Source: Ananas comosus
Taxonomy: Eukaryota; Streptophyta; Magnoliopsida; Poales; Bromeliaceae
Assembly (NCBI RefSeq): GCF_001540865.1
Contig: NC_033633.1
Coordinates: 8,215,691-8,279,690 of the forward strand
Reading direction: 5' to 3'
Length of the DNA: 64,000 nt
Shown here: piece by piece, positions 3,217-47,300 of the stretch
How the letters are laid out: each line of letters starts with the position of its first letter
Position numbering within the stretch: position 1 is the first letter of the stretch
Made by a program: the position numbers and the translations under genes
The notes under the pieces: model-generated
What the model was told of the DNA's origin: nothing
Database searches by the model: none
Seen by the model: the letters and a program-made list of their open reading frames with translations, nothing else

Positions 3217-3803
3217 NGCATACAACTCATGCATTCTTTAACATCTATCTCTTGCCTCATGCATTCATAATTAGCATGTTTATCATGCATTCATAATTAG
3301 CATGTATCTCATGCATCATTTACAATGTGGACTACCATTACTTGCATTCATTACTAGCACATATGTTATACTTTTATTTAGCATTTAACTCATGCATTCA
3401 CTCAACATATACTCTATACATTCAGTAGCATCTAGCTCTTGTTAATTATTTAGCAACTAGCTCATGTATTTAGCATCTAGTTCATGCATTATTCACTTGG
3501 TAATTAACTACCACATCATGCATCAATAATGAGACATATACCACTTTGGCATGGAAGCGACCTAATCGCTTCGGTAGAGCACAACCCACTTGTAATGCTC
3601 TCCGATTGCTTGTAGTCACTTGCAATCGGGCTCCCGCGGCACACGTGATCCGATTCGGCTTCAACTCGCGATTGATCGCCGAACGCCAACAATCCGCAAC
3701 GTAGGGTCATCAAAGGCTCATCTCTAAACTTTAATTAGAAAACAATAGGGTTAAATGAGATCAAAACCCTCATTTACCCATAATCCCCATTTTCTAAGCC
3801 TAG

Positions 3804-5499: not shown

Positions 5500-5500
5500 N

Positions 5501-17600: not shown

Positions 17601-20600
17601 ACCGTTTTCTAAAGATGGTGAGTGATTCACCGCTTTCAATGCACACAGTAAACGATTTACCGTCTTTCACTTCTCCTTCCACATGGCGCTGAGTTGGACA
17701 AAATACGGTTGGTTTGCGAAATAAATTTTTATTAGGGTTATTTGACTTAATATAATTCGTTAAAGGTTATTCAAAAAAAAAATGAAATTTGTTTATGTAA
17801 TCTTGCTTTATCAAGCAACTAGAATAATGTATAGATGCTAAAGTTACTATTGCACAAATGATCCATATGCTACAGCGAAACAGTTTTAGCTATCGTGAAA
17901 TAGTTTTAGCTACAATTTAATAGAAATGTAATAATTAGTAATAGTCTTAATGATCATGCGTTTCTCTTTCAAGCTTTAATCAAATTGTTTATATCAAGAA
18001 GATACTTAGATTTTGATGGTGATGCAGAGTGGGATTCACATAGGATTCAGTTGAGTCATCTTTTATTTATTGAGTCAATTTTTGTATTAGGTTTGGTTGA
18101 GTCGTTAGGATATTATATTTTTTTTTCTAATTCTCGGAATTATTATTTTTTAATTTATTTCAGGGATTGCTTTTATTTTCTATGTGGAATAAAACCCTAA
18201 AAATTAGGGATATATTTTAGGGCCTTTTTTAGATATGTTCGAATTAGGAAAATTTCGATTTGTTTTAGATTACAATTATATTTGACGGCTATAATTATAG
18301 CCTATGCCTTGTAATTTTAGAGACAATTTATGATGAGATAAAGTTTGTGTTTCATGTTTAGACTGCGATCATGGTATCTTCTTCTTCCCTTTGCCTTGTG
18401 CATCGACGAAAATCTATCTTTCTAAAGGTTCTTTCTTCTCTTTTCTTCATCTATTTCTTCTCTCTTATTTCTCGCTTCTTCTTCATTTAATCCTTACTCT
18501 CTAATCTTTTTAAAGTATTCTAGAATTTTCTAAAAAATTATAAAATTCAGTTTTATGAAGATTTGGGCTCATCACAAGCAAGATAAATTAAGACTTTTCT
18601 AATTTGTCCTGCATTAGATGGTTTTAGGATATGTTTGTTTATGTCAAGATTGTAGTGCGGAATGGTGAATATGTGATAGGAGTCTAAAAGCATATGTTAT
18701 GCATTAGCAATATCTTGCACATTAAAATCAATCTTGTACAGATTTGGTTTGGTATGGAAAATGTCTATTGTCGAGTAAAGTTAGTGTCTCTTGATCTGAG
18801 TCTTCTAATTTATTCAGAAATTGACTGACAAAGTCTTGCTTATCTTAATTTTCAGAATTCTGAATGCCACTGTACGTAAATTGCCTCGTTTGGCATTGGT
18901 TTAATGTTTAAAAGGCTCAATCTTACTAAGTAATGCTCGTTAATTGTTGTTGGTTGATGGACCGTTCATTGATCTGGATGAACTTTGAGCATCTGATTTG
19001 TATTTTGTTTGTCACACCAAGTTCTTTGATATGACCTTGGGCGATAGTGGTGGAATCATGGATAGAACTATAATGCAAGAATCTTGTGGGGCTGATGTAG
19101 CATGGCCGTTTTTGCCTTCTGGAGGTTTTTGATGCAAGAATGTTTTAGTGCTATCACACAATGGTGCTGTAGCATGGCTGTATTGTAGTAGGTTAAGGAG
19201 AAGAAGAAAAAGAAGAATGAGATAGAAGAATAAAGACGAAGATTGGGGACAAGAATGTCACGCCCTTGTTCCACAGCGGAAGCCCAGGGGACGACAACAG
19301 ACCGCCGTGTGTGCACAATCTTGCACACACGAAGCGTCCAATCGAACAACAACAACAACGAAAGCGAGTAACTTTATAATCTACAACTAAAGAATACCAC
19401 AAATCACAAATTAATGGTTCTAGAACTACGAAGTTAAGATAAAGACATGTATTAGAGCACTATGCACAAGCTTAACTACCGTACATCACTATACAGAATC
19501 ATATAAACCTCAAACCCCAAAAAGTAAAAGTGCAAGTAAAAGGCCTTGGCCTCGCCAGTCCTTATGTACAGTAAACATATCCAAAATCCACTAATTGGTG
19601 GTCCTCTAACACACATGTACACCGGTAGAAGATGCTATCTACTGCACGATCCCCTTACCTCGATCAGCGGAAGGTGCACCTGTCTCTGAAAAGTAAACCA
19701 TAAGAGGGTGCGAGAACTACTAAACAGAAGTTCCCAGTGGTACAGTTGGCGACAACCATGACCTTCCCACTAGGTCTACAAAAACAAGCATAGGTAACAA
19801 TAATTAATTCCACTAAATACTAAGCTATAAAGCATAATACGAGTAATAAATTTCTACTATTCATCATGTTTCTACGCAGGTAATGAACATGAAGGAAAAT
19901 GACTAAATCATGCATCAATGCTATTACTAATAGATAAATGCAATAGTATATTTGATTGCAATAACCGACTCATAGGTCCGGTCAAGCCTGTGCCCGCCTA
20001 GTGTGCGGCCACACTGCTGCATGTGTGACGGCGATATCTAGGCTACTGTCTTTGCTATCGCTGGCCAGTCTCCGAAGTGACACTCGAGGGGAGTGACTCC
20101 TACCGAGTCTAATAGTGCGTAATTCTGTCAAGCTCTATGTGGCTCTTCAGGCTATAGTCTTTGTGATGATCAAAAGATCACAATTAACCAATCCGGTGTT
20201 CTTAATGTTATAAAAAATAATTTCTATGTCTAGTGTCACTATGACATATATTCTACCTCAATGTCCAAAACGTCTATTTACTACTGCTGCTCTAACCCAC
20301 GGTCTTTATTACCTAGTTCATGACAATCGAGACATGTTTAAATGAGGAATGCTCTACAACCATGCATATGATGTTAACTCGCCCCTCTTGGCCTAATCTA
20401 GCATATATGCTTAATATACTATTAACCATTTACTATATTACAACTATAGAACATAGGATTTACCTGACATGACAAAGATGAGTGTTAACATGCAATCATG
20501 CTAGAATTCTAATTCTCTACTTGATTTCGTACCATCGCCTTCTATCAATATAAGTAACATATATATATATAGAGCTAGGCTGGTATACTATTGGTTGCAC

Positions 20601-22385
20601 GGAGGCCTCCGTGCTATCAAGTTATTTTCAATGATGCGGCTTCCAAATCGACGATCGGCTCCGTTAGACTTGATCTACACTATTAAAAGTATTTGGAACT
20701 AAATTTCATAATTTTTCGACATCATTTGACTAGTGATCAAAAGGTCTCAAAATTGACAATTTTAATGGTAGATGTGATGCGTTTGTGAATTTAACATTGT
20801 AAAACAATCCAAATCTGATGAAATTTTTATAGAAAATTCTTTTCACTATTTAGAGTAAGATTAGTACCTCTGATCTTAAATTCAAGTTTTTTATCATTAT
20901 TTTTTATGAGATTTTTATTTTTAGCCGTTCATATTTAGACTACTCGTTTGATAGGTAAATGATACCGAAAATTTATGAAATAATGTAGATCAAGTCTAAC
21001 GGAGCCGATCGTCGATTTGGAAGCTGCATCATTGAAAACAACTTGGTAGTACGGAGGGCTCCGTGCTACCGATAGTATACCAGCCTAGCTCTCTCTCTCT
21101 CTATATAAATATAGAGTCTGGCCACTATACTTTTATGAGTATAGACCCCTTTGTACTCATAAGTTTTCGGTCGTTAGATCTAGCTCTTTGATCATTTCCT
21201 CCCGTTAGATCATACTATTCAACCAACCACCCACTCAACCCTAAGGGACCACTATCATCATAACCGGGGCCGCTATCATCCTAACCACACATTTCTTCAT
21301 CCAACGGCCGAAAACTTATAAGTACAAAGTGGTCCTATACTCATAAGAGTATAGTAGTCTACTATATATATCATATTATAATATAGATTATTATATATAT
21401 ATATATATATACTATATATAAGAGTTCCGGCTAATGTGCTTGTAAAATCACCCAACACTCTTTGGTACCTTGTAAGGTTTTTACCGTTAGATCTACGCTT
21501 TGATCATTTTCAAGCCGTATTTAGATATACTATTCAACCAACTACCCATCTCAACCCCTAGCGTGCCCACATTATTCTAACCGCACATCCCTTAATCCCA
21601 AAGAGCCGAAAACTACAAAGACCAATGACTTGGTACTTTTAAAAGCATAGAGTCATCTATATATATATATATCAATTTAGACATAGAAGGAAATTCGCTG
21701 TTTCTCTGGCGGATTGGAACCCACCTTGGATCGCTATCAAAAGCGGCAACGTAATCGTCTATACAGCCATTCTCGGTTCATGTCCCGCAGGGACTCCACG
21801 AAAGTAAACTTCAAATATCAGGAAGGAGTTAGCAAAGCAAAGGATACCATAAAATGCCATACAATTTTGCGATTTGATCAAAAGAGAGGGGCGGGGGGTG
21901 GGGGTGGGGGGGGGGGTGTTAGATTAAAACTAATCCAAATTACGTTGATGATCCGTGTGAGGTAATTCCAAACCAGCGGGAAGTGACAAGAGGTTTAGTA
22001 AAATCCTCCAAACGCTCAATGGGAGAATCGGAACTACGAAAACCTAAAATTCAACGGAAGATCAAAATTCTATTTAACTTTAATTACATCAATTTCACAC
22101 CGGTTACATCAAATTCCAGCAAAATAAAGTGTAATTCAAACTCCCCTACTTTCCTCTTCCTCCCGTGAATGTCGATTCAATCGCCGACCGCGGATTGCAC
22201 GAAATTGACTCTCCCTCTCTCCCTCCTTGCTCCGCTACTGTTCCAGAAGCAACTGATGGCTGGTTGCTGCTGCTGCTAAGCAGCCAGCAGCAGCAGCTGC
22301 TGGCTACTGCTGCTGCCGTTGCTGTCAAGCAGCCATCAGCAGCAGCTGCTGGCTACTGCTGCTGCTGCTGCTGTTTCTCAGCCAG

Positions 22386-24267: not shown

Positions 24268-24310
<43 letters not shown>

Positions 24311-25207: not shown

Positions 25208-25277
<70 letters not shown>

Positions 25278-26289
25278 GTGCTGGTATGCTTCTAGTATAT
25301 ATAGAGTTGTGCTGGTATGCTTCTAGAAGCACGGAGGTCTCCGTGCTTCCAAGTCGTTTTCGATGTTCGCACTTTCGAATCGTTGATCGGCTCCGTTAGA
25401 GTTGATCTAGAGTATTTGAAGTACCTAGAAAATAAATTTTGCGATTTTTCGATATTATTTGCCTAGTGATCGAAGGGGCTCAAAATCAATAATTTTAACG
25501 GCCGTGGTGAGCCGGTTGCAAGTTTAACGGTGTAGAAATATCCAAATCACATGAAATTTTGATAGAAAATTCTTTATACCATATAAAACAAGATCAATAA
25601 CTTTGATCTAAAATTTTAATGTCATATCATCGTATTTTGTAAGATTTTTATTTTCAGCCGTTGATTTTGAGCCACTTCGATCACTAGGNNNNNNNNNNNN
25701 NCCAATCAACTTTTAAAACTATGTATGTATGTATATATATGTATATATATATCTCGATCCGACCATATGATAGCCATCGTGCCTCCGGAGGTACGATGGT
25801 TCAACAAAAGTTACTACGTCGAAGGTTTAGCTGCTAGCCGAAACAATCTGAACTAGATGTGATAATTTTTATAAACCTTTGATTTAAAGTATTAAAAAGT
25901 CGTAGTTAACCAATCACTAGTTTTCCAGAGTTTTAACTGTTAAAATTACCATCTACACTACGTAAACATTTAAATTGCCACATTTTGTTAGGTTTAGTTT
26001 ACTTTAAAAATATCTTTTAAGAAAAATGATAAATCTCATTCTAGTCATGGAGATTAGAATTTAAGTTCAGAAGATAGTAGTAAAAAATACTCTAAAAATA
26101 AAAGTCAGCAAGTAAAAATCTGGTGAGCAAACTATCCATTTACTATGACTTTTTAATACTTTAAATCAAAGGTTTATGAAAGTTATCACATCTAGTTCAG
26201 ATTGCTCCGGCTAGCAGCTAAACCTTCGGCGTAGTAATTTTTGTTGAACCATCGTTCCTCCGGAGACACGATGGCTATCATATGGTCGG

Positions 26290-26384
<95 letters not shown>

Positions 26385-29300
26385 GATGATATGATAGCCT
26401 TCGTATCTCTTAGACTATGAAAGCTAAAAAACCGGGAATTTAGTTAGTGAAACTAGTAAAGATTGGAAACCTAATTATGATAATAGTACACCGTTAACCG
26501 TAACCTGTATCCTAAAATTTCATAGGTTTAAGTTTGTTTTATACAACCCGGTACAAAGTCCTTTTGTTTTTTTTTTCTTGGTGTTTTCTAGGTTTCGGGT
26601 AACCCCGAATTTGGTGTAAAGTATGTTATATGTATTATGTGTGACCCGGAATATTTCGGGTAATTGTAAAATACCCCTGATCTTTTAAGATCTTTTAAGT
26701 TCACATTATACGCTGTAACCGGGTCTAGTCAATCCAACAAACCCTAACGTCTCTCTAACGCCACTCTTTTATGATGACGCCGTTTTATGAAATAAATAAA
26801 AACATTGATTATCGAACAAATAACGAGCTGTATAGCGTTAGAATACTCAGTTTGTTTCTTCGTGTAGAAACATGCGAAAACGAGGTCGAGACAAAATACT
26901 CTTAGTATCAAGACATGTAGCAACTCTAAAGTTTCCCACTAGTAGGGAAATCTAATAAAATTCAATTTACATAAAAATACTAAGAGGTCTCATGGTTGAT
27001 AAAGTCGAAGAATTAAGCTTAGTTATAAATTTATAGCCGACTTACTCAGGTCAACTTAGCACTTAGTTACTTAACCACCTTAACAGGCTTGGCAACCAGC
27101 TCGGTGACCAGCTTGGCTATTTTGGAATTAGACTATCGCAAAAACGCGCACAATATATATTGAAAGAAAGAAAATACGGATTCCAAAGACACCTACAAAG
27201 TTTGTTTTACCGAATCAACTGGTTTCACAAACTTATGAATTGTCATGACATGAGTGGTTCTAGTCTGTTTACCCATTCACGGGTTCAATCCGTTTGATTT
27301 CAGTTTTGGATAAGTTGAGTCGTTGACAACTTAATTACGAAAAAAAAAAAAAAAGGGGTCAGTTTTACCAGTTGAAAACTTTTGTGGTTACTGAGTACTA
27401 CACAACTACACACACATACGTATGTTAATGTAATAGAGTAACAGGGGTACGTTGGTTTAAAAATAGTTGGTTTAAAATTTTTGATTCATCAACTTCTGGA
27501 AAACACATCACTCACCTGTACAATTAAACGTAACGTTAATTTAATAAGGGTAACATCTATCAGGATGATTCTTGTATGGTTTACCTATACATTATTACTG
27601 TCCATCTTCTTTGGAAAAAAGGGGGGGAATTAATAACTTATTTTGAAAAATCATGGTGTAGATAATAACCTACGATACTAATAATATCACGTTATTAATT
27701 GACACCCTCGAAAATTATTATAGATGGAAGATGAAACCGGAGAAGACGAAGAGACCCAACGAAAAGTTGGAACACAAGACGATAATTTTTGGGGTATTTG
27801 AAAAGTATATTCTTAGTTAAAAAATAAAGATCTCAAAACCGGTGACAAGAAAGAATTACAATCAACTCGTTAAGTCTACGGGATGAGATCAGAAGTTATA
27901 AAATAATTTAATATTCCATGTTGTATTTTAACATCTCAGAAAAGGAAAAAGGTAGTATACAAATATTATATTCATATGCATATTGTTGAAGGTGGCTAAC
28001 ATGAATCACGTCAACCAATTCTTAAATTACCAACCATAGGCTCTAAAATTCAAGTTTTAGATTAACGAAATATAAAGATCGACTCAAATAAAGAGTCTTT
28101 ACTTGTTTTTGTACATCGTACAAGAGAGAGAGAGAGAGTGAAACTATTTTTTTTTTTTTTTTTTTTGGGGTTTCTTGTTTTACCAAAAAGGATGGTACAT
28201 TCGTAGAAAATTACTCCACTAATAATCAACCAATACAGACTGTCGAGATAACAATCCTTGTACAGGGTTTGAACCTGGTCTCCCTTACGAAATAAAGTAA
28301 AAGTACCCTAGTTTGTTCCAAAGTTAAACAATCGATGTTTGTGATTTTCCGAAAGCTTTTATTTATAATAAAAATGTATCATAGTATTAACCTTCAAGAT
28401 TAAAACTTGAAATGTTTTAAAAGATTAGCTCTGCATCCTTTTTGACAATTTATATTTATAATTTTTATGGTAATAGACCATCGAAATCAAAAATCTCTAT
28501 TTTCTGAGTAGAAAGTGTAATAAAAACGTACTCGAATTAATATAAGAATAATTATTTGTATCTTTCTAAACTTCTATCTCAATACATTGATTTGTCCTTC
28601 CTTTTTCTACCCACTCGTTTTCGATTTGGATTTTCCCGAATAAAACGTCACTCCTTTGTCAATATTTTTCTCTCGTAAAACAGTCAAGAACAAACCTAAA
28701 TAGGGACTTGTCCTTAGAATTAATTAGTGTACTTTAATTTGGGGTCTTGTTCCCGGTGTCGGAGTCACACCACCAACACGGTAAGGACAGGAAAAAACGA
28801 ATTTAAGACGCCGTCAACCCGAATACAGCTCTTTTTTAAATCCAGAATTAAGACTCATCAAGAAGAGACATTGCAGGTAAGGTGCATTTAATACATTGCA
28901 TAATAAATGTTGTTAAAAAAAGAATATCAATAAAAATAAATTTGAATGAATTTTATAACAAGTAAAATAGACTGGTTAGAATGTACCGATTCACTTAATT
29001 TATTCCCGTAATTCCTCATACGTACGTATAAGATCGAAACCTATACGAACTTTGAAAGTTCACCTGGACTCACGTATCTAATCTATCGTTCCAACTCGGT
29101 TACCGATGGTTTGGAGATGAGTCTTAGAGTGGTATAGATCGATTAGAATAAAGAAAAGAAAAGAAAAGAAAAGAAAAACTTAACTTTAATAAGTCTTTTG
29201 TGTTTTCCTCCTGGTTTTCCCGTTGAAAAACAAAAGTAAAAAGGAGTTTACTAGTTTACCACGAACTCAACTCGAAAAGTCATCTACGTCCACCCCAGAG

Positions 29301-32300
29301 AGACGTCAGGGAAAGTCGTACGGACTCGAGTTAGTGGGAATGAGATTTGTGTGAGAAAGGTTTGGATAGGTTCGATGGGTCTTCTAGAAACACAACCAAT
29401 GGAGAGTCCTTCCCTCTTCGTGAAGAGGTTTAGTGTATTTTTTTTATCGTTCGGTAGGATAATATAATCGGATGATAACTTTAAACTTTTCAGGGGAAGT
29501 GAAAGGTTAAGGAAAAAGAAAGGGACGGTCATTGTACACTCCGACCAAAAACACGAGTGTACCTTTTTTGAGATGAGTATAACGTAACTTTTAGTGAATG
29601 GTTCTTCGTGAAAAGGAGTTGGTAGTAGTATTAGTGTTAGTAATAAAGGACGAAGAAAAACTTCGACTTTCCTCTCAAGTTCAACAGTTACTAGTAGTTC
29701 CTCTGGTAGAGTTCGAGAGTGACGTCATAGAACATTCAAGGTTAGATGATAAGGTCGTACGTTTTCAAGAGAGAGTACGAAAAACACAGTGAAAACTCGT
29801 GGTATGAGTAGTGACGTACACATCATCAGAGACGTTTAAGACTAAGTCACGACGACGAAGTTTATTTTAGGCTAAAGCAGCTGGGCTTACCCCAAGAGCT
29901 TTCGACCAGAAACTCACGTTTACACACATCGACCTTACCTCAATGTACAGAACTACTGGTCCTGATACAGAACCCAGAATTGAATAGCCCGGCTCCCGAC
30001 AGGCCAAGCTAGAGAGGCCGCTGGCCTGCCGAGCATAAGGAGCTTAAGGAGCTAAATAGCAGCTTAAGAGACAGGCCGGGCTAGGGGGTGCTTGAACCGT
30101 ACGAGTTCTTGGACTTTTGTAACGAAAACATGAGGTTAAGGGAGAGGCCAAGCTAAGGAGCTCTCGAGCCGGAAGACTACTTGGAGCTCCTCGAGTCTTA
30201 TCCACTATTGAACGAGAGACCCCTCTAGGGCGGCGTATAGCCGTTGACGTGGCTTAACCTCTAAGACCCAGAACGAAGAACGGCTAATTTGCCCTCATAA
30301 GGCTAAGTTTAAAGACTATACTTAGTAGACTCTTATGAATTATAAGTCTTGTTATCGGAGAGTCCCGGCTAAGGGCTTCCTTAGCCGATGACGTCATTAG
30401 ACGTTCAAGATAGTCGACGACTCTTGTTGAATGTCCCTCTTTAGGGAGTTAGTTAACCCTTTAATATACTTGACGTTTGAGACTTAGAACGTTTGTTGGT
30501 TGAAATGCCCGGCTAAGGATATCTTTAACCGCTAGAAAGCTCGAACTGAATAGAGATAGATGAGCCTTTGGCTAATTCGCCGTCGTAGGGACGCGTCGAC
30601 TTGGTCAACTCAGTCGACTTCTAAAACCTGAACAGCTACTTATTAGAGAGGCCCTGTCAGCCATAGAGGTGACGGGCGGAGTTGTTAGAAGTCATAAACC
30701 AGGAAAGGTCGTTGAAAGAGCTCCCGCCGTAGAGACTTCTAGAAACAGGCTTATTGAGCTCGAACGTTTTAAACAAGAATCGGCCTTTGTTAAATTGTCC
30801 GTGTTAGCTCCTCGATGAATTGACGTTAAGTAATCTTAGAGACCTGGAGAGTTTGTTATCGGAGTCGCCTCAATAAGGCAGGCCATAGCTGGCGGAATGC
30901 TTAGAGTTCTTAGAGCACGAAGTGTTGTTATCGAAAAAGCCGCAAGATGGTGTACTCTAACCTTTAAACTCGTTAAACCTCTATAATAGAGAGAAGGTGT
31001 TGTTAGACTAACCACCTTAAGGTGGCCTTTAACCCTTCAATGTCTTCGACTGCGAAGAAGAGCATATACTCTTAGTCTACAGACCCTGGTAAGGCTTACT
31101 CGATTGGTTGACGAGCTTGAATCTTCTCTAGCTGAAGAAGCCTTTAGTGAAACAGCCAGGTTAAGGCCTATCGTAACCTTTCGAGTTCTTGAACCATCAC
31201 GACGTTAACTCCGTCTTACTCGAAAGCCCGGGATAAGGAGGCTCAAACCCGATGACGTTCTTCGATGTTCTGGAACGGAACCGGCTATTATTCGAGAGCC
31301 CCTGGTAAGGCTCGTGAAAGCTTGTGGAGCGCCTAGAGTGTAACTAGTGTAACATGTTGTTAAGGGAGCTCCCAGGAAACGGCCTCAGAGAGAAGTACGA
31401 TTTTTTAGAGTCGTAGTAGTTGAAGAGAGTGTTATCTGAGTTGCCTTCGTAGGAGGGAAACGAGCCGAGTTGGCGTAATTGACAGGACCTAAACTGTTTA
31501 TTGTCGAAAAGTCCACATTAAGGGAGGCGATAGCCACTCAGCTCCTTGGACTGGTCTGATTCCGATCCGGTGTTAGAGGATTGACCACGTCAGGGAGGAC
31601 TCAATCCGGAAGAGCTCCTTGAGCTGAAGGATCTAGAACGCCGCTTGTTAAATAGGCCACTTCAGGGCTTATACGACAGTTCCACATTCTCTGACTGGGT
31701 AGAGGACGAATTACCTTTATTGAATCACCCATCACAAGGAAGTACCGACCCCTTAAACTTAAACGAGCCACTTGAGCTAGAGAGAAGTTTACTTAAGTCG
31801 CCCCTAAATGGAGGCCTCTAACCGTTGACGAGCTCAAATGACTTTGAAAGAGACGTACTGTTGTTACAAAGTCCACAATATGGTGGCCTCTAGCCTTTAG
31901 AGCGGAGTGAGTTACATGAATTAAATGTTTCATTATTAGTAAGTCCGGGTTAAGGAAGCTGATAAGCCGTGACGTTGTTCGAGATACTTAACTCCGAAAG
32001 ACTCTTGAGTGACTGTCCTCATTATGGCCGTCTCTAGCCTGTCAATTGACTCGAAGTTCAATATGACCTAAACTCGTCTTTAGTTAATAGTCCTCTTTAG
32101 GGAAGAAGATAACCTCTAGAGTAGTTCGATCTCTCTGAATTAGATAGAAAGTTAGCTAACCTTCCCGCGTATGGACGAAGCTAGCTGGCTGACTGTTCGG
32201 ATGTGGCTGATTTAAATAGCTTATTAAAAGAGCTGCCAAGTTAAGGAAGACATGAGAGCTCGAAGGGCAACTCGAGCAAATGCCCATTGCTTAATACACC

Positions 32301-35300
32301 GCGCGGTAACCCAAGTACACAGCCGAGTGCCCGGAGACTCTACTTCTCGAATAGCTGACGCTGCCACCGCCCCTAGTATCATCGCTAACACGAACAAAGT
32401 CGTCGCCAAACGCACCGCGAAGAAATATATTACGAATCTTATACCTACTTAACCTCCCTTCAAAGACACAGTTTAAGTCTACCTCTTCTCATACTCCCCT
32501 TTCTTCTGTCATTTACCGGGTCTTTTCTGTTGTTTACCTAGTTTTTTTTACCCTTCATAACCTTCCACTTCAGGTACAGACACCACCGAAGAGGACTACT
32601 CTCCTTGTCGAGAAGTAGACTAAGTACGTAAGAACCTCACTTTTCCCTTCACCCACGAAGTCTCTTAAGTCACCAGACTTTTTCTAAACCTTCAACTTAC
32701 GTCAAATCGACAACGTCTTGTAAGAGAGAAAGAAAAAGTAAAAAAAAAGAAATAAAAACATCACAAAACAAACCAACGACTTCACCCCACACCCATTTCT
32801 ACACGACCCAAAACATACGCCTTTAGATAATGATAACATCATCAAACATCTGAGTCATTTAGTTAGGGAACGGAAAGACTTTTAGACATGACGTTCATTG
32901 TAGAGAAAAGAACACGTTTGATCAGAAACCAATGACAAGTATGACGTACTTTTAAAAGTTAATTTGGTTCACTAAAACGTCTATCTACTCTTAGTGAAAA
33001 TCGGGCTTATTTTAAACGTTCCAAACTAAATGTTCTCTCTTCATCTACTTTGTGAGGTTGGAGACATCACTAATCATTCAAAAGTCGTCAAGTAGAGTTT
33101 ACGGAATGTGTAGTTGTTTGAAATGTTCCGCTTTTTCTAATAGTGTATAAATGTAACCTTGAATTTATAATGTCTTAAACAAGTAGTATTCGGTTTAAAT
33201 GTCTACCTAAAGTTTGCATTGTCCTATTCTCACTCAAGGTGACTCTTTTACATGTAACGCTGCATATAAGGCTTAGAGTTCCATAGAAATGTAAATCCTC
33301 TGTTATAAGGACGCAAGGAAGTTTGTTAATGTAGACTAAACCGTTTACCAATTCGGACTGACCAAAACGATAGCCGAACTTACTAGTTTTCTCTTTTTTA
33401 TTTTTTTTTATTTTCCTTTTTGGTATTTGGGATGGTTACATAATTGATTACAAGCTTCGTTTTAAACAAGAACAAGGTACCGTAGAAACACGAAAAAGCG
33501 CGAGTAACAACCCAGTGGCATATTAGTGTTGGTAATACCCATGGTATCTTGGTCACCACCAAACTCTTTTTCTCTTTTCTTAACTACAAGATACGTATTA
33601 TGTACATGTTCGACGAAAATCGTCGTGTCTGTTAGTCCAAACAACATCCTACGGTACGGTTTACTCAGTCGAAGCTGAAGTTCAGCGTCCCCTAGAGAAG
33701 TAATAATAGTCCCGAGCCTTATAGTACAGGACACTACTCCCATTGCCGTTCTTAATTTTTATTTTTAATAACTGCCAAGAAGTTCCTTTGACTTTCAACA
33801 CCACTTTTCTTTACTCTTCACGGATCCTGGAGAGGCTAACTCGGGTGCTCGTTTTGAACATTCGTTGGGACGTCGAAAACCGTCTCTTAAATACACACCA
33901 CAGGACTCTAGTTATACTTAATAATTTCACTCCGAGTAACCAATATAGGTAAATATGTTTCATCGCTAATAATGATAACTTCTACGCTCCAATAGAAAAA
34001 GGTTTGGGAAAGTTCCTAAACGAAGTAATTTCATCCCTCATCTTGGTCATCTCTAACGAAAGGAGTAAATGGGATCTCAACTCATAGAGTAACCTACTTT
34101 ATCTAGTTATTCCCTTTGATCACTTTTTCTTTATTAAGCTGTACTATAAACATTATATTATTGAGGTGTAAAGTTGTCTTTCACTACTGTTACTATGACA
34201 CTGACTGTTAAGTTCTGACTATGAGCTCAAGCTAGTTTTTCCTCAAACAAAAGTAAATCGGTCTCCCATATAGAAGTTAAAAGAAGCTGTTAATTCAAGT
34301 GATAGAAACCTTTAGTTAATTCGATTACTTGTTATCTTATATATTTGGTTGGACAAACCCAAAGACGATCGAACGTTTCATTACGGTAGTAGTCCAGGTG
34401 GCAGCGCTCTCTTTTGAGCCTTTAATAACGACTAAAGTACGTCTTTTGTCATCAGAATTATTGTTATTAAGATCTTCGTCAGTTTATTATATAGTCTTTG
34501 GACATTCTAGGTGACCGTTTCGCCGCAGGTAGGAACGATTACGTTGTGGGTTTGAACAGCTTCTGCCTTAGTCGTGATATGTTGAGGTTCTCGACGTCTA
34601 TGGTCTTTTATACAATTGTAGTTTTATATAAAAAAGTTCTCCTCATGAACATAGATACTAATCAGCAGGTTTTGGATTGTTTTTGTTTACTGTTCGTGAA
34701 TAAGATGACCGTCTAACCCAAAAGAAAGCTTTCCCTTTTAAAGTTTACTCTGTGTAAACTACCATGAACACGTATAACTTAGTTTTGATTATAGTTAATT
34801 CTTTATTTTTTATTTATTCAATGGAACCTCGCTTCTATGAGTACATGTAATTTTCAACGTTATCCTCTCGAGAGGTACACGTCCAGGGTGTAGACTTTTA
34901 CGTCCTTTATTGTACACTGTGGAGATCTAAACATCAAGAAATATTTTCTATATTACACCAGTTTGGAGAATTGGACCGATATCTTAAACCTGCCACCGAT
35001 CCAAGTTCTCTAATTCTCTCAATTCATACGATTCTGATCTCATCGGGATCCTGCCCACTGAGGGAGTCTTCACCCCGCAGTGTATTGTTAACTCCGACTG
35101 ACGTTTCAGGTGTTAAAAAAAAAAAAACCGATTATATCTTGTATTACTGTTGTATTTATTATATACCATCCTGTTTTTTTTAACATCTTTTCTCAGAGTT
35201 GTTACTTCAAAATCTTTAGTGTCATCGACTTATATTTCTAAAATCATTTTGTTAATCTCTTTCCGAACCAGTTCAGTCCAACCAGTTAGGCGACTGACTT

Positions 35301-38300
35301 TTTGTTTACAGTTGATAAAGTTTACCCTATTAAAATTTATAAAACGTCAATTACTGGGAAATTTTTAGTCAACTGAACGGTCCGATCATATTCCACTTGG
35401 CAGTTAGTTGTTTCTTATGAGTGTCATTACTTCTAATTGAAGGTGTATTCCGATGTGATGGAAATTTAAGTACATCAGCGCTGAATCTTATATAGAAGGT
35501 AGAAAACCTTTGAAATATAGTCTTTATCTTCTTTAATAGAGCGATTTCTTTCAGGGTCTAAAAAATAAAAGTGCTAGTGCATCAGACGTTGTCTTTTATA
35601 GTTTAGTAGTTGGGGGAAACGATTTCTTTGATAATTTCTCATTGTATATAATCTATTTAGGTCACTATTCTTATTGCTGTTCGTTTACTTTATCGAGTGT
35701 AAGAGTGTAAGACTAGTGTCTGACGACTGACAGCGTCCAGTTGTTCGGCTTATTTTGGAGAGCTTGACGACATCCGATTTTCTAACGTTATTCTGCCTAC
35801 TTTAAGTCGACTTCATTAGTGGAGACCTCTCAAGTTGTTTACTTTCAGTCATTCATTTCGATAACTAGGTAGTTATTCAATGCATTAACAAGTTTCCATT
35901 GAGTCGTACGTGATGGTTTGACATCTTGAAGACATACAACAGGAGATGTGTTTCCTAAGGAAGTTAGTTCACATATTTTACATCCGAAGAACAACTCTAA
36001 GGGAGTTGATAGCCGGTACACTTATCTGGGGAGTCGAGAAAAAAAAAAAAAAAAACCCAATGTAAACGAGCAGAACTAAATTCAACAAAGTAATCCCTAA
36101 GGTAATTAAAATTACCGAGGTAGTCAATATTGTCCGATTGAAAATTGTCTTGGATGTCTTTTTGGCTCTGCAATTTAAATTGGCATTATGAGTCTAATGC
36201 GTATTAAAGTGGTATTACTCTTTATTGAACTTAGTTTTACTCCTTTTCGTATACCCGCAGTTTTTTTTTTTTCTATTTCAACCCCTCGGATAAAGTTTTA
36301 TCGGTTGTCGACGTCCCTAGAGACATTCTAAAATCGGTAGATAATAAGTACTACTCCTGATTTTCAATGCCTTTTGTCTTAATACTTATTTCTACTAATA
36401 ATACAGTCCTTTTGTCAATGTTTTATCTAGTGGATGCTCTAGAAGGTACAGTTTTCCGAAGTATAGTTACTACAATTTCGTAACTAATGACTAGAGGTCC
36501 AAGGTATTCAAATAAGACTCCAGTAGTCGTCTATACTTACAGAGTGGTAGTGACGCGTGCATTCTTTTTATAATCCGGAGTCTGTTTTTTGGTTTTTGGT
36601 GTATTTTCTTGGATGTTTCCGATCCGATGTAATCATGGTAGACGGGTAATCACTGTCTTCATTTAGGACTTTTTATTAATGTTTATTAGACTTGTACATC
36701 TAGCTTACTCTATTTAGAAGTGTGTTAATTCGTGTTTTACGTCTTCTATCATTTTTTTCTTATTACCTTTTAACATAGTTATCTACGACACGATGGGGCT
36801 ACTACGTTGAACCGGGGACTTGTAAAGTGAATTTGTGACAGTAGGAGGTCAAAAGAGTATACAACGTTAAGGTAGGAATCGTCACCTTTTTTTTTTCTTG
36901 TTCTTTTATTACATCCGACTGGAAAAGTGATTTTACTGGAAAGATTGAAGTAAAGTTCATTTGAATTTTTGTTTCATGAAAATTATCTTCCCTAATATAC
37001 CAGTAAAATCTTTTGAAAAAAAAAACTACCAGTCCTTACTTTGACGTTGTATAATTTTTGAAGTCCCTGATGCATAAATTCACTTCTCAAGTCCCTGGTG
37101 TAGTGTTATAACCCTATCATTCCCCTGATAGGTATGTAATATGACTTTTATAGAATGGATAATAATCTCTACCTTAACTACAACATTAGTACTCGTACTC
37201 TTATCTAGGAGGCTGTGAAACGTCATCACCATAGAGGTTATAGATGATGGATTATTGTTTTTATTTATATCTGATGTACCATAATTATAAATGGTCTTCT
37301 CTGTTTTGTATATTATGATGTTATGTCAAAGAAGAAGCCGAATACTACTTTGTTTTATGTTGATTATTGTTGAGTCAGTACTTAAGGCTTAACCTATATC
37401 AACCTAATTGTTCCATTATTTGATTGTATATATTACCTCTAAATACCCCTTCCTTTTTATTTTTTCTTTTAGGAGATTTGGTTGGAAAAGTCCCGGAAGA
37501 AGTCTACAACCTCTACATAAAGACCCGAAGAATAAGGAGGTGAGTTCCATCATTGGTAAGGAGCATCGAGAAAGGCGGAGCGGTTGTTCTTTTGAAAAGG
37601 GTCGTTCATCTCGCAAGAGACTCCCATACGCATCTGAACCAAAGCGAAGGAATTGAAAGAAATTGAATAAAAGGCTTCAGACGAAAGTGCTATATCAAGT
37701 AATTTTAGAGTAAGACTACGATCTTCTGTGTAAGGTTAATGAGGTTTGTACTTAAAAAAGACAGTTCAAAATGGAAGGTATCAAATTAACAGGATAGTAA
37801 ACATCTTTCTTATTTGTCACTTGACAACCCGACGCGTGTGGTGGAGTTAAACAACTAGAAGAGAGGTTAGAGGTTTGATAAGTCTATCAGTTTGATGTCT
37901 CTCTTCATGGTAACGTAAAGAGATATTCGTTAAATGCACGGTTTTAAATGCGTGATATTATCTTGTTCTTTTCCGATTGAATTATTTATCGTATGGAGAT
38001 CGAGTACTGAAACCTTGAGCCAAAATATTCATATATATCCTGCACGGCATCGTCCTATCAGGGACCTAAGATCGAGTAAGGCTCTTGGGTTGACTTTTAT
38101 TAATTTTTAGTCAATCATGAACTGGTGGTTTAAGCACATGTTTTGAATTCTTCCTTTTGCTCTAGATAAAATAGAATCAACGTTAACATATGTATAAAAA
38201 CGTACATGTCTTTTTTTTTTACTGCTTTATGGTATCTACTACACTCTCAAATGTACTAGGGAGAGACAAGGAAGTTTTTCTTAATAGGCCGGTGGTATTA

Positions 38301-41300
38301 GAGGTTGACGCTCTATCAACGGAGACGTCAGCTTAAGGTAACGCCTATATCATAGTGGACGTCGTTACGTTTTCTTCGTCGTTAAACATTTTATCACCGT
38401 CGTTCTATTATTCAAGGCCACGTAAAAACCCAAAAGAAAAAAGTGGAAAAAAAAACCAAAATAATGTGATATGATCTGAACTTGAAGTCCCAACAAAAGC
38501 GAAAGATATAGCATGAAGAAAAAGACAGTTTTTAAAATAATAAGTAAACCGTCATTAGGGATATGCGATAGTTGCTTGCTATTTTAAAATTAGTCGTGGC
38601 TCGTAAAAGAACGTATATCAAAGAGGTCGGGGTTTTGGACCAAAACTATCAAGCGCACGCGCTTTCACAAAAACTAGTTCCTTCTTTTACATCAATTCGT
38701 CGTTACGTTTCGCTCGCATCTCTCAAACTTTAAGTGTGAGATGTTCATCGTAGAAAAGATACTAGACGGTGGTTTTAATTGGTATTGCTCCAGCTTTAGA
38801 GTTGCAAAAGAATTGGTTTAATTCCTGAGATCTGAAGAGATGACTCGAGGATTTCACATTAATTCGAGAAAAAGTTTACGAGCTTACGAAAAGATCATTT
38901 CTTCGACTTGGTTTGTTCGTGATTCGTGTGTATAGTCGTAGTAAGTAGCTCGTGCAGATTAATGCTTCCACATATCTTGAATGGACTTGATAGCGGGTAA
39001 AACTAGACTGATGGATTGGGTATTTTTAAAACTAAAACAGTAGATTGAAAAATTCAGTCAACTATCTTTAGCTAATTACTGAGAAGGTAAAGTTTTAAAT
39101 CTATTCTTGTTCGTATTATTTACGTAGTTTTACTCGTGACTCGGATTCGAAGCATGCCCTTCTTGGTAGTGTGGCGAATTTAGTTTGTTTACTTTTCGAA
39201 CCTATACTTTTAGTTTTAAAAGTCCCTAACTAATCCATCACTTACCTAAACCTAAACCTACCCCTGACATTAGCAGCAGCAATGGTAGAAGCTCGAAGAG
39301 GGGGCCTTCGCCGAGCGGGTCGTGGACTCTGTTGAAGGTGAGGTCGCGGGGGCCGCGGCCGCGGCCGCTTGAGTAGCGTGATTTTGCCGCCGCCGCCGCC
39401 GCCGCCGCCTTCGCGAAGAGGGATAGCGAACGAAAGATATAGGCGTCAGCTGAGGCCACTTCACGAAGTCTCATTTCGCTTTATTTATTTATTTATTTTT
39501 AAGAGACGAAAAACAAAAACAAAAAAAAAAAAAACAAAAAACGAAAAAAAAAATCCACGTGTCGTCGTGTCACGTGAACGAATAGAGAAGCGGTTTATAA
39601 AATATAAAGAGCAAAAAAAAAATAAAAACCTTTTCACTCTTAAAAATCACCACATAAAACGACGATGTAATCGAAACCGTTGCAGAGTGCAAATGTAGGC
39701 GTTATATATTATCTACGCGTCAATGTTTGTTAAGATGTCATATTTAAATCTAGTAAATTCTATATTATTATAGCTAAAATCGGCGGCGTAATGGTTTGAT
39801 CTGCTTTTGTATCTTGTTTCGGGTTCATTCCCGAAAAAAACGTTTATCGGGGTACTGTTTAAAATAAACATTTTTATCGGGGCAGGTTTTTAATAAACGT
39901 TTTTACCGGGATGGGGACGGTGCGGTCGCGGTGCAGTCGCGGTGCGCCCGTCCCGCCCGGGTCCACAAATTCAACTTGTGCCACTTGGTAAGTGGCACAA
40001 GTTATGTTTTAAAGTGGCACAAGTTATGTTTTAAAAACATAACCTGTGCCACTTACCAAGTGGCACAGGTTATGTTTATGGGGTTGTTACTGATTCAACC
40101 TCCATAAACATAATCTGTGCCACTTAGTAAGTGGCACAGGTTAATAAACATAACCTGTGCCACTTACCAAGTGGCACAGGTTATGTTTATAAAGCTAGAA
40201 TCGATAAAACATAACTTGTGCCACTTAGTAAGTGGCACAGGTTATGTTTTTGAAACATAACTTGTACCACTTAGTAAGTGGCACAGGTTATGTTTTTGAA
40301 ACATAACTTGTGCCACTTACCAAGTGGCACAAGTTGAATTGGTAGACCGGGTCGGGGCGGGCGCACCGCGACTGCACCGCGAACGCACCGCTCCGGTCCC
40401 GGTAAAAACGTTTATTTAAAAACTGTCCCGGTTAAAATTTTTTTTTTAAACATTCCCCCGATAAACGTTTTTTTCGGGGGGTTCATTCCTTGTAAAGGAG
40501 TTTTTGTTCCTCTAACCTACGTCTTGTTACAACTTCAATTTGATATGTAGTCGAACGGTTAGATCTTTAAAATGTTCCTTTACTTCTAACGTTATAGAGA
40601 GGGGCATTTAAGCTCAAGCGTTGACCTTTTCATACGGGATCGTAAGTCGCGGTCAATGGCGCAGCGGTGATCCAATGGGTACTCGGGAGGCCGCTAAAGC
40701 ATCACGAACCGAAGCCTTTTAGGCCGCACAAACCGCTCCAAAAGATTGAGGAAAGGACGTGTCTTGTGTCTGAGAGTTCGGCTGCATTTGTGCTCGCTCT
40801 AAATTAATGACACAGCTATAGATTTGACTGTCTTTAAATTTCGAGCTAGACAATGTCTACTTCTTTAAAGCTTTTAAGGACGACTTAACGTCGAATTTAG
40901 AGTAATGTCATTCGACGAACAAAAGAGTACTTAAAATCCTAAACATTGGTAGCCTGGCTAGCGAGATTTAGATGAAGATAAATAGGAAGTCCGAGATATT
41001 ACTTCAAAACATTACTTGTTGATACCTACGTATAAGGGTCTTTTTTCATAAGTGGTTGTATTTATGTTTACATTTTGTATGGACAATTTTTGAGCCGATA
41101 ACTTGGAAAATTTATGAGCATGAGAAGGCGTTCCGGTATGGCTGAACGTTCTCCTTGTTGGCGTAACAGATAGTGGGTTAAGATGTTACATCTTTAATAT
41201 CGCAGCAATTAACTTTCTTTTCTAATCTCGGGGGTGCTTCGTAAAGTTTAGCCGAAGTTCTTGACACCGCGTAGGCCGAAAATGTTCTTTACCTTGTTCT

Positions 41301-44300
41301 TTTCCATAACGTGTTTCTCAACGTTCTTATTATTTGATATGTATAGTGCCCTGTTCTGTATGTCCGCCTTTCCAGAGTTCATGGACTTTTCTTCTATACT
41401 TTCATCTACTCGAGAACAATTTTAGATCTTAACTACGAGAACTAGGACGTTTTGTAAATGAGTTTTGGCTCTGGTTATTATGCATTGTCAAAGTGTCGTT
41501 TTTTGTGATCAGCTTTACTCAACGTTACCATACTTTGGACCAAAGTCTTGGGATTTATAAAGGACGTAACGAAATCCAAACAGTTGGTTCAATGCATTGG
41601 GTATTGGTTGTCATTACCGTAGTTTTATCGTCAGGTACTTACCATTTAGATCCCGTAGTGGAAGTTGGGTGGACGTATTTTCAAAGAAAAAATTTTTTTT
41701 TTTAAGGGTCACATTCCAGATATGCCCCCTCGTATTTAAGGGAAGTCTTTCTTATTCGTGTCTTTTTTACGGTACATGAACTTTTATAGAGTAATTATAT
41801 GCGTTACATTTGTCGTACGTTAACATCCCTTGTCGTCGTCTTCCTAATATCTCAAGGTCATACTATATCTAGAGGATTTACCCAGTGTACGTGATTCTTA
41901 GATAATATTGACTTTGTTTTTTCTATTGGGAAGTATAATGTTCCTGAGAAATACGATAATATGAAAAGCACGGCTTCCAAGAGTGAATTACAAGAACATC
42001 GTTCGGAAGGTTATAACGAGAACCGCTCATCTTCGTTAACTATTACCGTGAGAACTCTTCAGTTCTCGATAGTGGACACTTCACACTGTTTTATCGTAAT
42101 CTGAGAGAGTAACAGACTATAGGGTCCAGTTAGTAAGAGGTAAAAGCAGTTTTACTTGTTTTCTATTTTCCCATTTTATATAGATATCATTGGGGTATAA
42201 CGTCGAGTCACGAATTTGTAAAGTGAAGTTTCGATCAGGAATTGAAAGAGTACTTAACATGATGGGGCTATAATACTGATTTAGGGATTTGAAGAGTCTA
42301 TTTGTGAAATGATGGACTTGAAAGAGTATATGACGTAAGGTAGGAATTGGCGAGGACTTAGAACATTCACTGGTAAATATAGCATAGGTTATTTTACTGA
42401 AGGATTGATTAAAGGACTTTGTCGTAACTTTTCCAGTGAAATGTCATTTTTACAGTACAAAAATCAAAGAAAAGAAAAAAAAAAAAATTCGTGGTTCCTA
42501 CTTTTACGTCATTATAGTCTTTAAAACTCCCGATTTCTAAAGTTGACTTTACGATTCCCTGATTGACTTTGTAGTTCTAACATGTTTCTGTTAGGAATGC
42601 ATAATTAGCTTTTATTTTTTACGTATCACCTACTTTTGTAAACGATTGGGACTGGACATTCTGGTAAATTTGAACAAAGTGTCTGTTGTAAAGTGAACGT
42701 ATTACCAAATCTTTTATTTCTATGTTTTTTCTTCCACTGGAGGAAGATGTCATAGTTTTTCATAGATTCTACGAACGTCGTTTTCATTGTACGAAATGGA
42801 GATCCAGTACGAATAGAAAGTTCCTACCTTTCATTTTCTTATGAGTTCTTTATCGTCTGGGGTTGGGGTTGTGGGAGGGGGGGGAGGTTTGGTTTTTTTT
42901 GTTGCTTTCTCTTTTCTTCTTTACAACTTTGGAATTTCAAATAGTGACTACCTCTCTTTATTTTCCGAACGATATAATATAAGGCATTCATTACGTTCGG
43001 AATGATGTTTAAGCTTTCGTCTCCTTTCTATATACCGGGAATTTAAATTACTCTTATTGATTGACATATATCATCGTGGTAAACTACATTTTACTAACAG
43101 GGCTACTAAAGTACTACCGACACATTCCAGTATAACAATGTATGAATGTAGAGTATCGCCCGTATCGTCAAAGTGTCCATAAAACTTATACACAATTTCA
43201 ATTATCTGTTGTCGGTGTGGAGAGGCAGTCAAGGTTGGAAGACCCTATCTTCTTTACAGTTTAGCGGCGAGGGCGTCGTGTTTAGCTCTTGGGCTAGGGG
43301 GTAAAAGCGTGACGTTTTTCTCTTTTACCCATAGTTTTAATTCTACTTTATGGACCTGATGTTCCGTAAACCTTTGTTGTCAATAACCTTGTAATTTTTG
43401 ATTGATTGGAAAGGCAATTAAACCTCTTACAAAAATTAGATTTCCTTTTAAAACAATTAACCGTCTTACTATATAATGACAAAACTGTTTTTATCTATTA
43501 AAAGTTTGTTATAATTACTTTATTTTTTGTTTCTTTCTATTTCATCGATTTAGTATTATAAAGGACAACTAAATGCGTAAAGATATCAGACCATTCCGAA
43601 CATACGAAAATGGGTTTTAATTTGGATGATTTCATTTCGAGTTCACGACAAACCCTAGTAATAGTAAAAACAAATTGAAAAAATTGTAAATAAGATATAT
43701 TAACTATATAGCTGTATTCTGAAAAGAAAACAATAGTAACAACTAATCGAACGTTACGTGATACCGGTTCATTGCCTGCTATTGAACAAATTTTTTTAAA
43801 ATTTTCGTTTGTTTTTTCATCGAGAAAAAAAACGACAATTTATTTTAGGTTCCTAAACATTCGTTAGGTGGTAGAGAAAATATGATAAAATATATCTTTA
43901 AAATACATTTTTTTACTTTTTTTTTTTTACCGTTTCCGCGTTTTGCTCCGGTTTTTTATCGTAAAAAAAATTAAAATGGAATTAGAAGATCTCACTTTGG
44001 TGTTTAAGTTAAAGCCTTGGGGTCACTATCATTGTTATTCCATTTTTATATGTTTTGGACTTGATACATAGTAAAACTAAACCGACGGGTTGGAAAGTTA
44101 AAAGTATAATGATAGGTTGGAAAGTTTGTCAGTCTAAACACAGCCACTTGCTATGAAACTGAAGTTTTAATTTCAATTAATGAGTGAAATTCATCAAATA
44201 TTAACGTTTTTAATGTACTTTATATGGTTAGTTTTGCGTAAGTTTAAAATTTTAATTTCATGGGGCAACTGACTTAGTTTAGTTTATTTGACTTTGTCAT

Positions 44301-47300
44301 CTATCATTTTAGTTTTAAAATTTTCAAACCCATCAGTTTAGTTTTACCAGTAGTCAAGCTAAATCAAGTTCCGAAGTTCGTTAAAGACATGCAAAAATGC
44401 CTTTTTTATTTCTTTTTCTCTCGTAACGTATATGGGCGAGGTCCTCTGCCGGTAGGAGAAGGTTTAGGATACAACGGGGTTCCACTCGTGTAGCAACTCG
44501 ATGGTAAAGTCGTAGTTTTCGTTGTTGTATGTATTCATTATCTTGCTTCGTTTTCTTAGTTTGCCCGCCTTCTCTTCCTCCTCCTCCGCCTTAACCCTCC
44601 ACTCGATTGTGTGCAACAGCATCTACCCCCGCTACGCCCTCTTATCCCAGACCGCTAGCTCCCTCGTGGACTAAGCTGCTCTGCTTCGGCTGCTGCTGCT
44701 GCTGCTGCTGCCGCTGCTGCTGCCTCTTCCTCTCCTCGCTTCCGCTGCTGCTGCTCGAGGGCTCCTCCTCCTCCTCCTCTCCCTCTCCTCTTCTCCTTTA
44801 CCTCCTCCGCCTCCTCTCCACCAAGCCCTCTCTCACCTTCTCCCGCGACGTTGCCGGTACCCGCTACCTACGAAGAAGGGAGAAGGAAAAGCGTGGTTTT
44901 CCCACTCCTAATATTATTACTACTAAAAGAAAAAAGAAAAAAGAAAAAAAGAAAGAAAAAAAAAAAAAAAAACAAGTGAAATAGAAATGAAAAAGTATTT
45001 TTCATTTTTTTTCTTAACATCCAAACATGTATATATGAAAAACTATATATATATATATATATATTTTTCCTAATGAACCAAACAATAGAAACTAGAAAAT
45101 ATCTTTTCCACAGAAAAATTTTTCTGCGAAAATAGTTTTCTACTATTTTCCAAGGAACCAATCAAGCCCTTAGGAGTGAAATTATATGGAACATGAAACG
45201 GCAAGTAGTTTATTGTAGTTTTATCTCATTCCTAGCTGTAGCAGGGTCTAATATTTATATAGTACAAGTTTTATACTTGCAGAATGCATGGGCTAGTATT
45301 TATCACATTAGGGTAGTGGTGATATATATTAAAAATGATGGAAGGTAAACCTAAATCTTAGGATTTGATTTACACTAGGGTAATGTTTGGGCGGCTATCA
45401 ATATAGCTTACGACTTGCAACTTATGGAGAGATGAGTTATGATGAAATAAAATTTGGTGTTTCGTAATTTGACTATGGTTATGTTATCTTCTTTTTCTTC
45501 CTCTTGTTGTGTGCGCCAACGAAATTCTTCTTCCTAAATGGTTCTATCTTTTCTTTTCTTTCTCACCTTTCATTCTTATCTTTTTTTCTGTCTTATCATT
45601 CTTCTAAATTTTCTTCTCTAATTTTTTTGAAAATTTTTGCAAATTTTCTGAAATTTTGCCCATTTATTGGTTATTTTCTAATATTTCTTCTTAATTTCTG
45701 AAAAAAAGATAATTTTGAAAAATATGAAAATCATTCAAAACATTTAAAATTTAGTTTTCTTTAAAGTTTGGGTTCATCGCTTGCAAAATAGATTAGGGCT
45801 TTTCTAATTTGTCCTGCATCAATGCTACTTCAGAAGTTGACATTTTGAGTGAGCAAAGAAAACTGCTGACCGATTGGATTTTGTTACAACAAATTTCAAT
45901 AATAATTACTGCTATTATGCCCTGTCAGAGTTAACAAGGGTTTAACCATTTGTATCATCTCTTTCTTTATGCTAATTATGTTCATTTCATGGTTCTTTTC
46001 ACAAATGTGTTCTACATTTGTACGAAATCCTCCATAGGAGTTTTGAACTAGCTGTTTCAACTACATTTCTTTAAACAAAGTAAGACGGAGCTATGTACCA
46101 ACATATATGAGAAAGCTTATTTACAATTCTTAAGGGCCTCAAATCCTCTTGCTGCTTTTATTTGGGTTAGCAGGATGGAAAAAAAAAAAATCACTAGCAA
46201 TATCACAAGCAAAGTTTAACTGCAAAGGCACGGGGTTATGTTGAGTACTTGCTAGCACAGTACATCAGTGCTGTGCTGTGCCGGTTTGTGTAGCTGACAC
46301 AGTATCTATTTGCGGACACACTTGGCATAAAAAAATTATATCTTTGACTCTATTGTATTCCAATTGCTCTCAATATATTGTTAGTCAAATGTTTTGTACT
46401 CCATTAATGCAATTACTTGCTACTGTCCAAAGAAAAAAAAGAGCCCGTTTTGAGTTGTGCCATCGGCATGAAGGACATTTTCATTCCGATACCTAGTCGG
46501 CACAATGCAGCATGGTAGGCAGGGCTCGTGCCAATGAGCACTTAAATCCTCGATCACAAAGATATTCACAAATTTCTGTATTGTACTTTTGTTCCAATAG
46601 TTAATGTATTATCATGATTTTGTTGATTGACAGGATTCTATTCTTGGAGGCTATTCATAATATCATGGTGTACAATCATCTATTCTATTCTTGCCATATT
46701 AGCTCAAATCTTATTTAATATCTTTTGGTGTATTGAGGGAAAGGACTGGAGTGTGGCTCATGCCTGGTGGGCAAACCTCGTTGGTTTCATCAGGTACAAT
46801 AGATAATGTGATTTACTGGTTTTTCTTTTTTGGCCTCCAAACTTTACCCTTTCTTGGTCCTATAATGCTATAGGCTACTTCAATGTGTTACAATAGACCA
46901 TTTATATTGACTGCCTCGTCGCAGAACTTACTCATGCAGGAGTGTATATCTGTCAAGAAAATCTACTTAGGTCAAAAGTTCATTGGTTTTGCTCGTCTTT
47001 GTGGATTCGAGAATCTAGAGCATATTAACATGATGAAAATTTCATGGCACATTATGGAAGTTTTGAACTGGTGAAGGATAATTGAAGCTACTTTTAACAT
47101 ACTAGGAAGGATTATCTAATATGAGTGTTCTAAGGGGGACTAAATGCACATTTGTAACATATGAAACGAGGCTTTTTTTCAAAAATGTTGGTCCAAGTAC
47201 CGAAACTTTGCCATCTTTGATCATCACCTTTACTGTGCTAGAATTGACGAGGTCAGACTAATTTGCAATTTTTTAATTGAAACTTCCAGGTCAATAAGAG

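Follow-up and report, generated by a model that had tools for sequence, protein, structure and literature searches.

How can a block of plant chromosome sequence hold intact genes that are legible on neither of its two strands? This question is raised by a 64,000-nucleotide stretch of the pineapple (Ananas comosus) reference, very likely that of F153, hereafter the window, which corresponds to positions 8215691-8279690 of contig C13 (NC_033633.1) in an assembly of 381,958,007 bases and 3128 contigs. The original prediction held that the letters at 26382..44930 had been complemented without being reversed, and that three genes, encoding a leucine-rich repeat (LRR) protein, the methyltransferase MENG and a PP2A B55 regulatory subunit, exist only in that forbidden reading. 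The present analysis bears this out. We are highly confident that the window from 25702 to about 44930 is the unreversed complement of the true strand, most likely because a pipeline reversed, without complementing, contigs or gap fills that came from the opposite strand.

The window was examined in four readings, namely the forward strand, the reverse complement, the complement without reversal and the reversal without complement. Only one frame in all four readings reaches 250 codons. It lies at 29737-32676 of the unreversed complement and, counted from its ATG, comprises 973 codons plus a stop (29758-32679). Between 26382 and 44930, the longest frame of the printed letters has 146 codons, versus 980 after complementing. 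When the complemented block was Markov-shuffled 200 times, the longest frame averaged 129 codons, with a maximum of 198, so that the printed value falls within this null distribution. The encoded protein contains a GSO1-like LRR ectodomain, its closest Protein Data Bank entry being GSO1 itself (6s6q, E = 1.5e-240, residues 27-860). A membrane segment (judged by eye rather than by a prediction program) appears to follow the ectodomain, with a short tail behind it. No protein kinase family is found among the seven Pfam matches of the product, which is thus considered as a receptor-like protein rather than a receptor kinase. A close pineapple orthologue was not seen among its best 120 matches, 7971 candidates having been scored.

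The two other genes become legible when the printed letters are read from right to left. Spliced alignment to P0121, an annotated Ananas comosus B55 subunit, gives a model of 14 exons and 1518 nt, with 13/13 GT-AG introns and near-identity to this protein (97.6% over 503 amino acids). The model for MENG (2-phytyl-1,4-naphthoquinone methyltransferase) comprises 8 exons and 888 nt, with 7/7 GT-AG introns, and its product carries the Ubie_methyltran domain expected of UbiE/MENG proteins (PF01209, 5.7e-55). The aligner permits GT-AG introns alone, and the test therefore lies in the existence of such models and in their fit. Scores of 2428 for B55 and 1425 for MENG are obtained in this reading; on the three other readings, the same guides yield scores of -50 to -117, with 13-26 fragments and no gene model. 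The MENG guide included the window's own N-terminal frame, which means that the first exon is not independent in that alignment; this exon is matched in the complement sense by a separate pineapple record, P0242. In tblastn searches, P0121 matches the complemented window along residues 5-507, and on the printed window it gives four matches, with E values of 2 to 10. All the gene-level figures initially proposed (973 codons, the exon numbers and lengths of MENG and B55, and 20 GT-AG introns in total) are thus exact, and protein similarity is present after complementing for the LRR protein, MENG and B55 alike.

Could the block nevertheless be an ordinary inversion, or a gene desert in which genes appear in the forbidden reading by coincidence? 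What can be cited in favour of coincidence is a set of weak similarities between the printed strands and pineapple MENG proteins, the best having E = 2e-5; they fall in Ser-, Pro- and Leu-rich stretches of low complexity and were obtained with composition adjustment off. The 973-codon frame, the 20/20 GT-AG introns and the 97.6% identity to a pineapple protein refute this explanation, whose probability is negligible. The exclusion of a biological inversion also stands, as no permitted strand carries the genes and the reverse complement is not legible either. An ordinary inversion cannot be the cause because genes, repeats and dinucleotide composition are all restored by complementing in place, and only by that operation.

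Composition provides a measure that does not involve the genes, since complementing without reversing exchanges CG with GC, CA/TG with GT/AC, and TA with AT. The CG/GC ratio is 0.68 in the left flank, 1.52 in the block and 0.58 in the right flank; the corresponding values are 1.24, 0.77 and 1.28 for CA+TG/AC+GT, and 0.88, 1.21 and 0.87 for TA/AT (chi-square p of 1e-35, 1e-40 and 1e-14, respectively). CA+TG exceeds AC+GT in 22/25 one-kb bins of the left flank and in 19/19 of the right flank, and in 0/19 of the block. An independent model was trained on 12 loci from elsewhere in the assembly, of which two overlap and one is mostly N; it calls a flipped segment at 25571-44930 and scores negative in 2/25, 19/19 and 0/19 bins of the left flank, block and right flank. 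Markov models trained on the window itself place the change-points at 25352-44570, with a spread by model order from 23883 to 25570 on the left and from 44384 to 44605 on the right. Such change-points alone are coarse, and the block edges were therefore set by repeat and protein homology. Six repeat matches to the flanks are found with 26382-44930 complemented, none with the block as printed.

On the left, the boundary is marked by copies of a miniature inverted-repeat transposable element (MITE). A truncated copy in normal sense can be traced by eye to the last base before a 13-N gap, and the full 565-bp element that begins at 25742, beyond the gap, is already complement-only, with inverted ends of 158 bp (93.7%). 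The left edge is thus located at this gap, and the proposed edge at 26382 was rejected, being about 680 bp too far to the right. According to PMC8449440, Ac-mMITE-1 of pineapple measures 510-570 bp, with inverted ends of 140-180 bp and (TA)n or CT/GA flanks. Judged by these published ranges, both full copies in the window (20561-21102 and 25742-26306) fit in size, inverted ends and microsatellite flanks; unlike Ac-mMITE-1 in general, the second one is legible as a complement alone.

At the right end of the block, the complement still shows protein identity to P0243, a pineapple MENG record, as far as 44890. Normal-sense repeat similarity is weak at 45134 (38 bp, E = 1e-4) and firm at 45362 (230 bp). 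An A-rich tract at about 44930 is the most likely position of the right edge. The annotation of P0243, which comes from an Ananas contig of 32,775 bp, is marked as partial and starts at 44890, so that a break at almost the same point is probable in this other pineapple record. The coordinates of all these features, together with those of three families identified elsewhere in the assembly, are collected in Table 1.

Table 1. Features of the window and of three further flipped regions (window coordinates unless a region is named).
Feature	Position	Strand or reading	Evidence or remark
Unreversed-complement block	25702..44930	.	Dinucleotide ratios, Markov log-likelihood ratio, genes, repeat sense; right edge uncertain, 44890 to 45134, at latest 45362
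LRR receptor-like protein, 973 codons	29758..32679	., complement left to right	Open reading frame scan, GSO1 structure match, Pfam
PP2A B55 regulatory subunit gene, 14 exons	33590..39375	., printed letters right to left	Spliced alignment, P0121
MENG gene, 8 exons	40655..44859	., printed letters right to left	Protein match, spliced alignment, Pfam
13-N assembly gap, left edge of block	25689..25701	.	Normal-sense MITE before, complement-sense MITE after
Reference normal-sense MITE copy, left flank	20561..21102	+	Alignment to other copies
Ac-mMITE-1-like copy, truncated, cut by gap	25296..25688	+	75% over 376 columns to 20561-21102, aligned to 25671; 25672-25688 by eye
Full Ac-mMITE-1-like element	25742..26306	., complement-only	88.7% over 565 columns to 20561-21102
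A-rich tract, likely right join	44925..44976	.	Letters, independent model
PMD (plant mobile domain), 602-codon frame	L145:5840-7645, C1	Forbidden reading	PF10536, 6.8e-38
Sec20, 314-codon frame	L152:645-1586, C20	Forbidden reading	PF03908, 1.7e-27
Urease_beta, 124-codon frame	L153:2432-2803, C24	Forbidden reading	PF00699, 4.3e-7

Does the block belong where it stands? The same strand-flip fault may have been combined with misplacement, the block being a second allele or a recently duplicated copy of a locus on contig C5 that was wrongly put into C13, perhaps joined via low-complexity ends that look alike after reversal. This variant, which does not exclude the reading given above, is possible, though we lean against it. 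A closely similar B55 copy is indeed found in normal reading at C5:14877023-14882782, with a span of 5.76 kb versus 5.79 kb in the block and 14 matching rows that are 65-98% identical, intron spill-over counted in. A six-frame B55 search of the whole assembly listed 52 matches, none of them on C13. The location of the right end in an A-rich tract and of the left end in a MITE cluster would also suit a misplaced piece, and section 3.2 of the paper on the MD2 v2 assembly describes other regions of F153 v7 as chimeric (PMC8774480). What argues for the block being in place, once complemented, is that MITE copies cluster on both sides of its left edge, with no copies found by the MITE query in the block interior or the right flank. 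A partial B55 copy is also present at C20:2348291-2349069.

The original prediction was confined to one block; its spread across the assembly is an addition of the present analysis. A complement-sense MITE query of the whole assembly gave 298 first-look candidates, of which 40 were scored, yielding 146 alignment rows on 23 contigs by our own count; these rows include both inverted ends as well as the copy in the window itself. Pattern searches were also performed, with the reversed but not complemented pattern as a built-in control count. A 33-base pattern from the MITE end, with up to three mismatches, occurs 666 + 664 = 1330 times in normal form and 19 + 20 = 39 times reversed-only; for an unrelated 37-base repeat pattern, the counts are 136 + 205 = 341 and 4 + 2 = 6. 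The reversed-only fractions are 2.85% (39/1369) and 1.73% (6/347), or 2.62% when pooled (interval 1.97-3.49%). If repeats sample the assembly evenly, the pooled fraction translates into 10.0 Mb (7.5-13.3), which suggests that about 2-3% of the assembly, roughly 10 Mb, would be affected. Since MITE clusters may be enriched at hard joins, this estimate may be too high.

Twenty chromosomal MITE places, taken from the upper part of the list with three on small contigs left out, were then fetched as 10-kb regions. A flipped segment with a log-likelihood ratio (LLR) of at least 25 is seen in 11/20 of them (26 to 171). Controls reach no more than 13 (four regions, one of them mostly N) and 19 (eight loci of 3 kb). 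With the independent model, the same threshold is reached in 8/20 (L137, L140, L143, L145, L146, L149, L152 and L153). Five forbidden-reading frames were picked by eye for a family search; three of them belong to the families listed in Table 1, and the remaining two gave no family.

These data bear directly on the idea of a deliberate edit of the window, in the manner of a planted test. The transformation is exact and clean, as an edit would be. The same transformation is nevertheless found dozens of times elsewhere in the assembly; it affects two repeat families that are unrelated to each other, and often lies beside Ns. A deliberate edit is thus highly improbable and was rejected, given the recurrence of the fault outside the window. 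Of the causes initially offered, an assembly or gap-filling error is retained and remains favoured, and the edit is not, in view of the N gap at the left edge and of the fault on many other contigs.

The association with Ns was also assessed in the 20 regions, whose 200 kb contain 34 N events. In 16/20 regions, at least one estimated edge (the outer edge of the MITE group or of the LLR segment) has an N no more than 300 bp away, the expectation being about 4/20 for evenly spread Ns, with two edges per region. Some Ns abut the complement-sense MITE itself, directly before it in L142 and L150, two bases after it in L151, and six and nine bases before it in L147 and L154, respectively. Ns often touch the flip edges, and single Ns therefore seem to mark joins.

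A processing fault is favoured because the pattern is recurrent and often gap-associated. Pieces that were assembled on the opposite strand, whether contigs or gap fills, need both reversal and complementing upon placement, and the simplest account of all data would be a step that performed the reversal alone. The faulty step may be a strand flip in scaffolding, merging or gap filling. The MITE cluster straddling the left edge favours a true sequence that is the complement in place, for which reason the operation would have been reverse-only rather than complement-only. The outcome is like the chimeric F153 v7 scaffolds in involving misplaced or misoriented pieces of an assembly, as described in PMC8774480. 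An ordinary orientation error keeps a legal strand and can be found by BLAST, whereas a reversed-only piece gives no useful match with either of its strands.

A real molecular event that copied DNA in the forbidden sense has a precedent in the literature. In section 1.1 of PMC4942731, Seligmann refers to reversing without complementing under the name of "swinger" sequences, the DNA cases being confined to the exchange A<->T plus C<->G. Such events are claimed there and in related papers for nuclear and mitochondrial genes, especially ribosomal RNA genes, with sharp switches; one title in the reference list of PMC7027195 concerns the 16S rDNA of the Kamimuria wangi mitogenome. The block shows the same systematic A<->T plus C<->G exchange when compared with its homologues, as judged from B55 and from the MITE, and the same sharp switches inside one sequence record. 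Unlike those records, which are taken as biology, it holds 19 kb of nuclear genes, is bounded by a gap on the left and belongs to an assembly-wide pattern attributable to an assembly fault. Splice sites are intact over these 19 kb, and several edges lie at assembly gaps. In addition, a complemented 360-nt segment of 16S gave zero matches in 20,395 Escherichia coli records (37,543 places for the normal form), a rough measure of rarity in finished bacterial data. A complement-only 16S motif was likewise found 0 times in a collection of 84,980 prokaryote species genomes, the normal motif being found at least 116 times. No established polymerase is known to copy in the forbidden sense. A swinger event is hardly credible here, less so even than an edit, and biology as the cause of the block is effectively excluded. 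Apart from the swinger papers, none of the papers listed by the literature searches appears to deal with reversed but not complemented sequence in an assembly, as far as titles and the beginnings of abstracts indicate.

Several observations weigh against the strand-flip fault, its extent or its exact limits. In 9/20 regions the LLR stays below 25, and the flipped state is indicated there by the MITE match alone; among the 11 above this threshold, L139 and L147 are doubtful, with normal-sense MITE copies inside the segment. No N is found near the estimated edge in L141, L143, L146 and L152, and the right edge of the block itself is without N, the left edge alone lying at an N gap. Two of the four window-trained models stretch the flipped segment leftward to 23.9 kb, where repeats read normally, and k-mer models score 44600-44893 as normal (+10 to +15), though protein identity there is flipped. 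Finally, an arbitrary 17-base pattern (three N-free ATGGC repeats plus gaps) gave 13 + 24 = 37 normal and 23 + 5 = 28 reversed occurrences; it is short, repeat-like and uninformative either way, and long specific patterns alone are therefore considered as informative. The close similarity and near-equal span of the C5 copy of B55 count against the simple in-place form of the fault.

Functionally, the block would bring nothing new, its genes being of ordinary plant types that a normal annotation would overlook. The relatives of B55 and MENG with the highest identity are Ananas comosus proteins; by score, a Buddleja protein tops the MENG list. The two genes lie on equal-sized contigs in Dioscorea zingiberensis (with locus tags three apart), Canna, Aristolochia fimbriata and Protea, and contig sizes also agree in Phoenix and Dioscorea cayenensis; they are on contigs of unequal size in Asparagus and Magnolia. 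From these contig sizes and locus tags, B55 and MENG seem to form a common gene neighbourhood in other plants.

At the scale of the genome, the F153 reference probably contains reversed but not complemented patches throughout, amounting to some 2-3% (near 10 Mb), which would hide hundreds of genes from all annotations and homology searches and explain part of the apparent gene losses. Neither BLAST searches nor the mapping of reads, RNA-seq or gene prediction should detect flipped sequence on either strand, and the genes inside would look lost. The MD2 v2 gene set has a completeness rate 4% above that of F153 v3 and includes 2060 genes unpredicted in the latter, according to PMC8774480; hidden patches could explain part of this gap. 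Should some 2% of this widely used crop reference be flipped, published pineapple gene counts, gene-family losses, MITE insertion surveys and synteny would have to be reassessed. Both the dinucleotide-direction test and the count of reversed repeats are cheap and could be applied to any assembly.

Three further features were noted in the flanks of the window. Single Ns occur at 3217, 5500, 7598, 11784 and 56161, none being found inside the block, and may mark contig joins. A repeat-derived sequence is present twice, at 5046-5547 and 7627-8089, 2.6 kb apart and near the Ns at 5500 and 7598, which is possibly a join duplication. The frame at 51874-52233 may resemble a hAT-type transposase.

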